DNA from: Rhodobacteraceae bacterium DSL-40
GTDB lineage: Bacteria; Pseudomonadota; Alphaproteobacteria; Rhodobacterales; Rhodobacteraceae
Length of the DNA stretch: 64,000 nucleotides
NCBI GenBank assembly: GCA_003258405.1
Contig: QKPN01000002.1
Span: 310,001 to 374,000, forward strand
Direction: 5' to 3'
This document shows positions 52,619-56,612 of this stretch, one piece after another. The position numbers were made by a program, and so were the translations under genes. The notes beneath the pieces were generated by a model. That model was not told where the DNA came from. It saw nothing but the letters and a program-made list of their open reading frames with translations, and made no database searches. Within the stretch, counting starts at the first letter, position 1. Each line of letters opens with the position of its first letter.

Positions 52619-52885
52619 CTACGACTTTTCGCCGAACCGCCCGGCGACGAGCGCCTTCAGCGCCTCCGCCACCGCCTCTTCCTCTGCGCCCGAGGTCTCC
52701 ACGTCGATATGGGTGCCATAGGAGGCCGCGAGCATCATCAGGCCCATGATCGAGTCGCCCGAAACCTCCATGCCATCGCGGCGCACCGTCACCCGGGCGT
52801 CGAAACGCTCCACCGTCTCGACGAACTTCGCCGAGGCCCGGGCATGGAGCCCCTTGTCGTTTATGATATCGAGTCTGAAATGCAT
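52619..52885 (-). CDS. HPr-family phosphocarrier protein
   Basis: This 88-residue protein is the phosphocarrier of a regulatory PTS. His14 in KGLHARASAK is the EI/EII phosphorylation site. Ser45 in VSGDSIMGLMML is at the position phosphorylated by HPr kinase, which fits the hprK gene in the same operon. Start at 52885. It is last in the hprK-rapZ-EIIA-HPr operon. Sugar transport through it is unlikely since no EIIB/EIIC is nearby. Confidence 0.93.
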   Translation of the reverse strand: MHFRLDIINDKGLHARASAKFVETVERFDARVTVRRDGMEVSGDSIMGLMMLAASYGTHIDVETSGAEEEAVAEALKALVAGRFGEKS

Positions 52886-52923: not shown

Positions 52924-53337
52924 TCAGAGCGCGAGGGGCGTCTTGTCTTGTCCGAAACCGTCGAGGCTGTTGATGTATTTCCGGCCCGCGGTCAAGGCGC
53001 AAGCCACCGCATCGTCCAGCGCGAGGTGGCGGGCTTTGGCGAGCTTGATGAGAAGCGGCATGTTGACGCCGTAGAGCACGCGATGGCTCGCGCGCTTGCA
53101 GGCAGACACGGCAAGATTGGACGGCGTGCCACCGAACATGTCGGTCACGACCACCACACCATCGCCTTCATCGACCGAACGAACAGCTTCGTCGATCTCC
53201 GTCTGCTTGGTGAGAGCGGTATCTTCTGGTCCGATCGGCACAGCGATTGTTCCAGGATGCTTTCCAACCACATGCTCCATCGCGGCCAGATATTCCCGGG
53301 CAAGTCCTCCGTGCGCGACGATCACGATTCCAATCAC
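52924..53337 (-). CDS. PTS EIIA component, mannose family
   Basis: This 137-residue protein starts at the GTG at 53337 (M-I-G-I-V-I-V-A-H-G-G), with GGAG upstream. His9 is the phosphorylated residue. VVVTDMFGGTPSNLAVSACKRA is the signature of the mannose-family EIIA. The GTG overlaps the rapZ stop (GTGA), so translation is coupled. In alphaproteobacteria this stand-alone EIIA with HPr is thought to act in regulation rather than transport. Confidence 0.93.
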   Translation of the reverse strand: MIGIVIVAHGGLAREYLAAMEHVVGKHPGTIAVPIGPEDTALTKQTEIDEAVRSVDEGDGVVVVTDMFGGTPSNLAVSACKRASHRVLYGVNMPLLIKLAKARHLALDDAVACALTAGRKYINSLDGFGQDKTPLAL

Positions 53338-54257
53338 GCCGTACCCACTCCACTCCCTGGTGCCGCGGGCGTCGCACGCTCCAGGTCCCTGTGGCGAGTA
53401 GACACCCGCCATCCGTCCTGTGCAAGCGTTTTCGCGAGGCTTTCCACCAGTGTCACCGAACGGTGACGCCCGCCGGTACACCCGATCCCGAGGCTGAAAT
53501 AGCTTTTGCCTTCCGCGCTGTAAGCGGGAAGCAGGAAGCGCAGAAGGTCGGTCAGTTTGTCGTAGAACGGCCCGAAGGCCGGGTCGGCCTTGACGAAGGC
53601 CTGCACCGCTTCGTCGCGGCCATCCCGTGGTCGCAGCTCGGCATCCCAGTGCGGATTGCGCAGGAAGCGAACGTCGATCACCATGTCGCTGCTGCGCGGA
53701 GTGCCGCGCTTGTAGGAGAAGGACTCGAGTCCCACCACAAGCTCGCCGCCCGCCGCGCCCTCGCCGAAGAGCCGGCCAATCTCGGCACGGAGCTCATGCG
53801 GGGTGAGGCCCGCCGTGTCGATGAGCACATCCGCCCGCTCGCGCAGGGGGGCCAGCAGCGCGATTTCCCGCTCGATCCCCACACGCGGAGACCCACTCGG
53901 GCTGAGCGGATGCCGCCGCCGCGTCTCGTTGTAGCGCCGCAGCAGCGTCTGCGCATCGCAGTCGAGAAACGCCAGAACCGGTTTCGTGCTGGTCTCCCGC
54001 GCCACGGCCTCGATGGTCTCGAGCACCCCGGCAACGGAGAAGTCGCGATTGCGCGGATCGATTCCCACGACCACGGGCCGCGTGAGCGGCGGCCCACTGA
54101 AGAGCCGCGGAAGCAGCGAGATGGGCAGGTTGTCGATTGCCTCGAAGCCGAGATCCTCGAGCGCACCGATCGCGGTCGAGCGTCCGGATCCCGCGGGTCC
54201 GGTGACGACGACTATCTCCTGTTCGCGCTCTTGCTCGGAGCCGCGCTGCTCGGACAC
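53334..54257 (-). CDS. rapZ: RNase adapter protein RapZ
   Basis: This 307-residue protein has Walker A GPAGSGRS (residues 20-27) in VVVTGPAGSGRSTAIGALED, FEAIDNLPISLLPRL, the FLDCDAQTLLRRYNETRRRHPL segment and the C-terminal GIGCTGGRHRSVTLVESL motif. In enteric bacteria RapZ controls glmS sRNA decay; in alphaproteobacteria its role is less clear. The Walker Lys is replaced by Arg (GSGRS), unlike the usual GSGKS, which may weaken ATP binding. It follows hprK by 35 bp. Confidence 0.93.
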   Translation of the reverse strand: MSEQRGSEQEREQEIVVVTGPAGSGRSTAIGALEDLGFEAIDNLPISLLPRLFSGPPLTRPVVVGIDPRNRDFSVAGVLETIEAVARETSTKPVLAFLDCDAQTLLRRYNETRRRHPLSPSGSPRVGIEREIALLAPLRERADVLIDTAGLTPHELRAEIGRLFGEGAAGGELVVGLESFSYKRGTPRSSDMVIDVRFLRNPHWDAELRPRDGRDEAVQAFVKADPAFGPFYDKLTDLLRFLLPAYSAEGKSYFSLGIGCTGGRHRSVTLVESLAKTLAQDGWRVSTRHRDLERATPAAPGSGVGTA

Positions 54258-54292: not shown

Positions 54293-54712
54293 TCAGACGG
54301 GAACTCTGGTCCCACCCTGCATCAGAATGGTCAACACAGCCTCAATATTTGCCACACCTCGTCCAGAAATCAATTCAAGCTCCCGTTCCAGGAGGCGGAT
54401 ACGCCCTGGTTGTGGCAGGCGTGCCTCAGGCGCCGTGTCGAGATCGACACCCACCACCAGAGGCACCGGCTCGACCGGATCGAGCCGCAGGATCCCGACG
54501 CCGCGCGCCTCGATAAGACCCCGGATCGTCGCAGGCGCCCGCGCCGCGAGCCCGTCCGCCCCGTGGGGTTCGAGCATTACCCGGTCATCCGACACAAGCT
54601 GCGCGCCGAGCGCGATCAGGCGCAGCGCGAGCCCGGATTTTCCCGCCCCCGATCGCCCGAGGATCAGCACCCCGCGCCCGCCCAGCGAAACCGCACTCGC
54701 GTGCACGATCAT
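54293..54712 (-). CDS. hprK: HPr kinase/phosphorylase, short alphaproteobacterial form
   Basis: This 139-residue protein is the catalytic domain of HPr kinase, which phosphorylates HPr on Ser. It starts at ATG 54712 with GGAGG 8 nt upstream. Walker A is GRSGAGKS (residues 19-26), LVSDDRVMLE carries the catalytic Asp pair, and ELISGRGVANIEAVLTIL is the HprK signature. The N-terminal domain of Firmicutes HprK is missing, as usual for alphaproteobacteria. A GTG at 54748 is an in-frame alternative start. A short ORF overlaps its start by four bases. Confidence 0.93.
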   Translation of the reverse strand: MIVHASAVSLGGRGVLILGRSGAGKSGLALRLIALGAQLVSDDRVMLEPHGADGLAARAPATIRGLIEARGVGILRLDPVEPVPLVVGVDLDTAPEARLPQPGRIRLLERELELISGRGVANIEAVLTILMQGGTRVPV

Positions 54713-54750
54713 GGCCACCGCCTCCACGAGTCGCCCCGCCCTCCCCACAT
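54709..54750 (-). CDS. 13-codon upstream ORF, possible hprK leader peptide
   Basis: An ATG at 54750, 9 nt after a perfect AGGAGG (54765-54760), reads MWGGRGDSWRRWP and stops in TGA, which overlaps the hprK ATG (ATGA). Three of 13 residues are Trp and three are Arg. An in-frame TAG stop shortly upstream shows that it is not the end of a longer gene. It could couple translation into hprK or act in attenuation. The alternative is that AGGAGG serves the in-frame GTG start of hprK at 54748, 11 nt away. Confidence 0.4.
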   Translation of the reverse strand: MWGGRGDSWRRWP

Positions 54751-54795
54751 TTTTGCAAGCCTCCTATTCTATTTTTCGCTTACCGAAAGAAAACG

Positions 54796-54840
54796 AACAT
54801 CAAGATCAACATCAGCCAACATTTTTTTCACCTTTTTTTT
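54796..54840. promoter_or_regulatory. AT-rich repeat and T-tract region between hprK and pckA
   Basis: AACATCA occurs at 54796 and 54808 and AACATTT at 54818, so the copies are 12 and 10 bp apart. Runs of seven T (54822-54828) and eight T (54833-54840) follow, centred about 11.5 bp apart. Helically phased tracts of this kind curve DNA, and phased short repeats often bind response regulators. The region lies between divergent hprK and pckA. A TATAGA at 54895-54900 is a possible pckA -10. Confidence 0.4.
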
Positions 54841-55007
54841 ACGCCCGCGTAACAAGGGAGATCTGGATCAAAGCGCAACGTCGCGCGGACGTGCTATAGA
54901 GCCTCCCAGCCGATGCCCTCGCACGTGCGGGACGGTCGTAGCATTTTTGCGGCAGGTCATCCCGGTAGCGGTGCTGACGACAGACATATCAGGAGTTGGG
55001 AGACACA

Positions 55008-56612
55008 ATGGCAACGACGATGGTCAACCCGGAGATGACGCTCGAAGCAACGGGATTTCCCGGCGTCTCCAAGGTGCACTACAATCTGCTCGAACCGGCC
55101 CTCGTGACGGAAGCCGTCCGCCGCGGCGAAGGTGAGCTCGGCCGCGGGGGCGCGATGCTCGTCTCCACCGGCAAGCACACCGGCCGCTCGCCCAAGGACA
55201 AGTTCGTTGTCCGCGAACCCTCCGTCGAGGACAAGGTCTGGTGGGAAAACAACACCCCCATGGCCCCGGAGAGCTTCGCAGCCCTCAAGGCCGACATGCT
55301 CGAGCACATCAAGGGTGACGAGCTCTTCGTCGAGGATCTCTACGCCGGCGCCGATCCGACCTATCGGCTCAACGTGCGCATGATCACCGAGCTTGCCTGG
55401 CACGGCCTCTTCATCCGTCACCTGCTGCGCCGTCCGGAGCTCTCCGAGCTCGCGACCTTCGTGCCGGAATTCACCGTGCTCAACTGCCCGAGCTTCAAGG
55501 CCGACCCGGCCAAGCACGGCTGCCGCACCGAGACCGTCATCGCGATCTCCTTCGAGCAGAAGCTCGTCCTGATCGGCGGCACCGCCTATGCGGGCGAGAA
55601 CAAGAAGTCGATCTTCTCGATCATGAACTTCCTGCTGCCCGAAAAGAACGTGATGCCGATGCACTGCTCGGCCAACCACGCCCGTGGCGATGCCGATGAC
55701 GTCGCGATCTTCTTCGGCCTTTCCGGCACCGGCAAGACCACGCTGTCGGCCGACCCGAACCGGATCCTGATCGGCGATGACGAGCACGGCTGGTCCGACA
55801 CCGGCGCCTTCAACTTCGAAGGCGGCTGCTACGCGAAGACCATCAACCTCTCCGCCGAAGCCGAGCCGGAAATCTTCGCCACCACCACCCAGTTCGCGAC
55901 CGTGGTCGAGAACATGGTCTACGACCCGGTGACCTTCCAGCTCGACTACGACGACGACAGCCTGACCGCCAACATGCGCTGCGCCTATCCGCTGCACGCG
56001 ATTTCCAACGCCTCCGACACGGCGATGGGCGGCATCCCGAAGAACATCATCATGCTGACCTGCGACGCCTTCGGGGTTCTGCCTCCGATCGCGAAGCTCT
56101 CGCCGGCACAGGCGATGTATCACTTCCTCTCGGGCTTCACCTCCAAGGTGGCCGGCACCGAGCGCGGCATCACCGAACCGCAGCCGACCTTCTCGACCTG
56201 CTTCGGCGCCCCCTTCATGCCCCGCCGCCCCGAGGCATACGGCGCGCTGCTGCGCGACAAGATCGCCGAACACGGCGCGACCTGCTGGCTGGTCAACACC
56301 GGCTGGTCCGGCGGCGCCTACGGCACCGGCCGCCGCATGCCGATCAAGGCCACCCGCGCGCTGCTGACCGCCGCGCTCGACGGCTCGCTCGCCAAGGCCG
56401 AGTTCCGCGTCGATCCGAACTTCGGCTTCGAGGTTCCGGTCGCCGTCCATGACGTCGACACGGAGCTGCTCGATCCCCGCGCCACATGGGCCGACAAGGC
56501 CGCCTACGACGCGCAGGCCGCCAAGCTCGTCTCGATGTTCTCCGAGAACTTCGCCCAGTACGAGCCCTATGTCGGCGCCGACGTGATCGCCGCGGCGCTC
56601 AAGGCCGCCTGA
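55008..56612 (+). CDS. pckA: Phosphoenolpyruvate carboxykinase (ATP)
   Basis: This 534-residue enzyme turns oxaloacetate into phosphoenolpyruvate for gluconeogenesis. GGGAG lies 5 nt before the [24 protein letters not shown] is the substrate-binding entry. The P-loop [10 protein letters not shown] is at residues 237-246, followed by LIGDDEHGW (kinase-2) and [10 protein letters not shown]. It is divergent from the hprK operon, which fits the known link of this regulatory PTS to carbon metabolism in alphaproteobacteria. Confidence 0.97.

Follow-up and report, generated by a model that had tools for sequence, protein, structure and literature searches.

Loss of chvI and chvG from the pckA–hprK locus in Amaricoccus and other lineages of the Rhodobacteraceae

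The two-component genes chvI and chvG are missing between pckA and hprK in Rhodobacteraceae bacterium DSL-40, and this absence is a genus-wide, inherited trait of Amaricoccus and not a local oddity. The conserved gene order is pckA / chvI-chvG-hprK-rapZ-EIIA-HPr; a deletion in an ancestor of Amaricoccus is highly likely to have removed chvI and chvG from it, and the hprK operon would now use a promoter region shared with pckA. Within the family, chvIG has been lost several separate times. ChvGI is described as a conserved system of Alphaproteobacteria that regulates exopolysaccharide, virulence, growth and envelope homeostasis (PMC9731502), and its locus as conserved into Rhodobacterales (PMC4550343); statements taken from articles cited here by PMC number rest on excerpts of those articles. 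A limited search of the literature, partly in excerpt, brought up no earlier report of such chvIG losses. Naturally chvIG-free organisms offer a way to study how HprK and the regulatory PTS work once the stress sensor is gone, and what makes the sensor dispensable.

The hprK–pckA locus and its intergenic region

The window, that is, the whole stretch of 64,000 nucleotides analysed, carries four genes on the minus strand, encoding an HPr/NPr-like phosphocarrier (52619–52885; assigned from the translation by GLHARAS and SGDSI motifs, with no Pfam support), an EIIA of the mannose PTS family (52924–53337; Pfam EIIA-man, 7.1e-22; GTG start picked by eye), RapZ (53334–54257; Pfam RapZ N-terminal, 1.6e-36, and C-terminal, 8.7e-45) and a short alphaproteobacterial HprK (54293–54712; Pfam Hpr_kinase_C, 4.5e-18; Walker A GRSGAGKS). 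The hprK start is placed at ATG 54712, an alternative GTG at 54748 being possible. On the plus strand lies pckA for PEP carboxykinase (ATP) (55008–56612; Pfam PEPCK_ATP, 5.2e-215). hprK and pckA are divergent, with their 5′ ends facing each other across 295 bp (54713–55007), and no two-component gene is present in this gap, which bears out the first-pass annotation of a chvIG-free interval below 300 bp. Most relatives have chvI and chvG at this site, with about 2.8 kb between hprK and pckA. A tblastn search of the window with ChvI and ChvG queries, three of each, detected no chv remnant (E 1e-3).

The same-strand array of hprK, EIIA-Man and HPr adjoining divergent pckA is that of the conserved alphaproteobacterial pckA-chvIG-hprK-PTS cluster, and the Amaricoccus locus is a variant of this known locus. 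In Brucella, Agrobacterium and Sinorhizobium, the cluster is pckA / chvI-chvG(exoS, bvrRS)-hprK-ptsM-ptsO (PMC2937029). Amaricoccus shares with it the divergent pckA, the order of hprK, EIIA-Man and HPr/NPr, and a short HprK without the N-terminal domain, whereas the two-component pair is absent without a chv remnant and rapZ is located between hprK and the EIIA gene. rapZ also occupies this position in relatives; the gene order pckA, chvI, chvG, hprK, EIIA, HPr given in the first-pass annotation omits rapZ. In Caulobacter crescentus, chvIG and hprK form a single operon, and the chvI promoter loses activity when ChvI is absent (PMC9731502); this points to the input that hprK control loses through the deletion. 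In Amaricoccus, by contrast, chvIG is absent upstream of hprK, which has its intergenic region directly in common with pckA.

Among 80 loci from named relatives, 72 contain both pckA and hprK (the synteny count leaves out the other 8, which have no hprK in the stretch), and a ChvG-sized gene lies between the two in 67 and is lacking in 5, where L160, L174 and L186 are counted as chvG-bearing with no ChvI ORF within the size filter. chvG is directly 5′ of hprK in 85/85 non-duplicate chvIG loci (L118, a duplicate of G006, and L183, L175 and L158, duplicates of other loci, were left out of the spacing counts and of the tree described below). The spacing has a median of 9 bp and a range of −4 to 155 bp, and the distance from the chvG stop to the hprK start is at most 100 bp in 83 of the 85. 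This adjacency agrees with the chvIG-hprK operon of Caulobacter (PMC9731502) and the bvrRS-hprK operon of Brucella (PMC2937029). Because hprK follows so closely behind chvG, it is very likely co-transcribed with chvIG from the chvI promoter in the relatives. Upon the deletion of chvI and chvG in the Amaricoccus ancestor, the hprK operon would have come to be read from the promoter region that it shares with the divergent pckA. As a result, the carbon/nitrogen PTS-HprK module would be uncoupled from ChvG signalling of envelope, acid and osmotic conditions and become tunable jointly with gluconeogenesis.

The pckA-chvI spacing in relatives has a median of 343 bp (243–503 bp in 84 of the 85 loci), and the pckA-hprK spacing in 14 scar-free losers is 173–434 bp, counted from the edge of the pckA match. 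Since the gaps of the losers match the ordinary pckA-chvI length, the deletion seems to have removed both genes and left the divergent promoter region. GC content falls to 0.38 at 54750–54849, against 0.69–0.75 in the adjoining hprK part (54400–54749; 100-base windows), and is 0.58–0.75 in the 100-base windows covering the pckA start. The gap had been described earlier as an AT-rich replacement unlike its neighbours. The GC dip is confirmed; the gap itself, however, is better read as a promoter region, because its length is within the pckA-chvI range of the relatives and it contains stretches conserved in most of the genus. It thus resembles a normal promoter region between divergent genes and not replacement sequence.

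Two conserved elements stand out in the alignment of the Amaricoccus gaps. One is a putative operator-like block (CGAAAGAAAACGAAC ... CAACA; 54784–54821), the core of which is found with at most three mismatches in 9/11 Amaricoccus gaps, 219–262 bp upstream of pckA, and in 4/104 other pckA upstream regions, by a pattern derived from the same sequences on which it was counted. The block is missing in the two remaining Amaricoccus genomes (G001 and G008), and across the whole window its core shows no enrichment (5 matches with up to three mismatches, the site included, vs 5.76 expected). The other is a −10-like element on the plus strand, CGTGCTATAGA (54890–54900), which matches C(A/G)TGNTATA, recurs in 10/11 Amaricoccus gaps as counted by eye in the alignment, and, judged by this conservation, is probably the pckA promoter. 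A scan of 54600–55100 for sigma-70 consensus promoters and terminators found nothing, nor did an Rfam scan of 54500–55200 give any match. The empty sigma-70 scan and the lack of the block in G001 and G008 count against the proposed promoter sharing between the hprK operon and pckA.

An FNR-type palindrome upstream of pckA was found in 0/11 Amaricoccus genomes and in 2 of the 99 loci outside the loser list. GCGCTAAC motifs, often paired (e.g., L119, L121 and L164), occur upstream of pckA in 75 of these 99 loci, a count that includes duplicates and loci with chvIG status checked in part, and in 0/11 Amaricoccus. This motif is possibly the CceR site. PckA drops in a cceR mutant of P. denitrificans (PMC11323563).

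Distribution of the loss in the family

The Pfam model PF13756 was rejected as a test for ChvG, being too insensitive: it detects merely 4/26 family genomes outside Amaricoccus, vs 23/26 by profile A1. For this reason family-specific profiles were built, A2 for ChvI (13 rows) and A1 for the ChvG sensor (16 rows), and run over 61 genomes; A1 targets the sensor domain, and a ChvG with a wholly replaced sensor would escape it.

The family survey was an even draw of 395 genomes, with at least 90% completeness requested; the best 7 candidates for ChvI and 6 for ChvG per genome were scored, with cut-offs of E ≤1e-75 and ≤1e-10, respectively. ChvI is present in 363/395 genomes and 324/351 genera, and ChvG in 355/395 genomes. 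All 32 ChvI losers are also without ChvG. ChvI without detected ChvG occurs in eight genomes (G063, G077, G149, G170, G190, G233, G272 and G332) and the reverse in none; 12 of the ChvI losers and 20 of the ChvG losers are those left once the listed positives are subtracted from the draw. The ChvG sensor may have diverged in the eight ChvI-only genomes instead of being absent, and an order in which ChvG is lost ahead of ChvI is therefore only suggestive. G077 and G407, both under genus label g68, are ChvI-positive, and the ChvG sensor is detectable in G407 only; a recent loss or divergence of ChvG is possible in G077.

The loss can extend over whole genera. Both members are without ChvI in five genera that were drawn twice (g1, g15, g24, g53 and g82). 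In the Paracoccus-anchored genus (G432, record Paracoccus laeviglucosivorans), ChvI at ortholog level is absent from 113/113 genomes, the best score being 1.6e-54 vs 7.6e-80 for the weakest listed family match, with nearly all of these below 1e-100. Thus, a system described as conserved is missing throughout entire genera. A search of loci by name gave no ChvG for A. macauensis, P. laeviglucosivorans, HIMB11 or Haematobacter missouriensis; a Paracoccus sp. MAG gave a ChvG fragment at 7.5e-4 only, and the controls Defluviimonas, Limibaculum and Pontibrevibacter all have ChvG (3/3).

The repeated deletion might be an adaptive rewiring rather than decay, in which HprK-PTS is handed to the divergent promoter of pckA and changes from an operon for envelope stress to one for carbon status, with ChvG tending to go before ChvI and Amaricoccus adding a genus-specific operator (54784–54821); we regard this as a tentative reading that is rather doubtful at present. 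The cells of both Amaricoccus and Paracoccus have been described as cocci or coccobacilli. It could be supposed that chvIG was lost together with the cell-elongation machinery in such coccoid genera, where a wall-stress sensor would then be useless. ChvGI does respond to peptidoglycan inhibition in Caulobacter (PMC9731502), but MreC is present in 393/395 family genomes; both drawn Amaricoccus have it, and among the 32 ChvI losers (12 of these 32 identified by subtraction) it is kept in 31. On these counts co-loss of the elongasome was rejected as the cause, little credence being left to it.

Loss, relocation and ancestry

In the genome that contains the window, there is no A2 match to ChvI at 1e-50 and no A1 match to the ChvG sensor at 0.001, and PF13756 is likewise absent; all 46 ChvI candidates and 40 of 46 ChvG candidates were scored. 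The homologue search proposed in the first-pass annotation thus finds neither protein at ortholog level anywhere in this genome. Each of ChvI and the ChvG sensor is found in 0/11 Amaricoccus genomes, this one included, vs 23/26 other family genomes, where ChvI scores 7.6e-135 or better in the 23 positives. Among 24 more distant members of the class, ChvI is present in 12 and ChvG in 13. Splits of the cluster do occur, as in G014 and G030, which hold chvIG-hprK together and pckA on another contig; a move of chvIG to another place in the genome is nevertheless very improbable, since no ortholog-level match to either profile is found in a genome rated 100% complete or in ten congeners. The absence is a loss, and relocation is excluded at the sensitivity of the profiles. 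The annotation had left the choice between loss and relocation, of which the former stands, and it would have taken close relatives that all lack chvIG here and have it intact elsewhere in a conserved place as grounds for a lineage trait; they all lack it here, and none was found with it elsewhere. Its notion of a local event is contradicted by the absence shared by 11/11 Amaricoccus genomes and by comparable independent losses elsewhere in the family.

Measured between profile edges, the pckA-hprK gap is 331–509 bp in all 11 Amaricoccus genomes; of the 26 other family genomes, 20 have a gap of 2.8–3.3 kb and G033 has one of 239 bp. In the other five, pckA is broken and about 5 kb off (G017), on the same contig as hprK but about 37 kb from it (G024) or on a different contig (G014, G030 and G018). 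The locus of A. macauensis DSM 101730 has the same hprK-pckA gap without chvIG. The three family genomes without the pair are G018, G024 and G033. In G018 a ChvG fragment runs off a contig end, indicating a contig break and not a loss, and the absence from G024 and G033 appears to be genuine. The distance of about 37 kb in chvIG-less G024 (contig C32) indicates that the cluster itself was rearranged there. In G017 (C7:95231–96363, in L110), the match to pckA is split into four pieces, of which three contain in-frame stops; it lies about 5 kb from hprK and adjoins intact chvIG.

Relationships were estimated from 99 rows of PckA, RapZ, EIIA and HprK by a quick LG+G4 search with midpoint rooting. 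Amaricoccus forms one clade (SH-aLRT 100), and a second clade (99) unites G033 with two Paracoccus rows, while HIMB11 and Haematobacter are placed apart from both. A single clade of all losers was rejected (p-AU 3.5e-5), and at least four chvIG changes are required on this tree. The comparison with sister genera that had been called for shows most family relatives with chvIG at the locus, and Amaricoccus and other separate clades without it. The order pckA, ChvI, ChvG, hprK is also found outside the family, in the genomes G037, G039, G048 and G054 from four other families, and because these alphaproteobacterial families share it, the presence of chvIG at the locus is most likely ancestral. In some other-family genomes (e.g., G040, G043, G045 and G051), pckA is not beside chvIG. 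In the midpoint-rooted family tree Amaricoccus is among the deepest branches, as it would be if chvIG had never been in its lineage and was gained by other genera. Such a late gain is hard to credit against the gene order shared with four other families, and the rows grouped with Amaricoccus (Oceanibium, Limibaculum and three unnamed rows; support 87, midpoint root) all keep chvIG. An assembly error or a missing contig, conceivable from the 190 contigs of the assembly and the seeming loser G018, can be practically dismissed, since the gap is internal to a 587 kb contig and recurs in 11 separate assemblies.

Scars of deletion and the retained module

In the loci of HIMB11, Haematobacter missouriensis and Paracoccus, as in Amaricoccus, chvG is gone or broken while hprK, rapZ and EIIA stay beside pckA. 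Two of these differ from Amaricoccus in what remains, a broken chvI-chvG scar in HIMB11 and a diverged ChvI ORF in Haematobacter, with pckA-hprK spacings of 919 bp and 1055 bp, respectively. In Rhodobacteraceae bacterium HIMB11 (L127:5100–5628), ChvI residues 2–102 at 70–89% identity are followed by ChvG from about residue 490 at 60–66%, in shifted frames. This can be read as an internal deletion of about 1.9 kb, as estimated from query coordinates, with frameshifts, by which the 5′ part of chvI was joined to the 3′ part of chvG. In Haematobacter missouriensis (L193:5067–5786), an open ChvI-like gene of 47–50% identity with an altered C-terminus adjoins hprK, and ChvG is absent. The tested loci of Amaricoccus and Paracoccus have no scar at E 1e-3; Paracoccus is thus scar-free like Amaricoccus, yet belongs to a separate clade. 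By analogy, HIMB11 may serve as a model for the onset of loss, and Amaricoccus and Paracoccus may represent old, scar-free outcomes; the deletion mechanism suggested for Amaricoccus is borrowed from HIMB11.

Judged from its sequence, the PTS-HprK module has been kept in order with its catalytic motifs intact after the loss of chvIG. The Walker A motif of HprK and the His and Ser phosphorylation-site motifs of HPr are present in 16/16 locus losers, and a general Walker A pattern matches HprK in 102/102 rows.

Typical Rhodobacteraceae loci are present in three records (L150, L183 and L192) that bear the titles Exiguobacterium profundum, Enemella evansiae and Nocardioides marinus; these are probably mislabelled public genomes.
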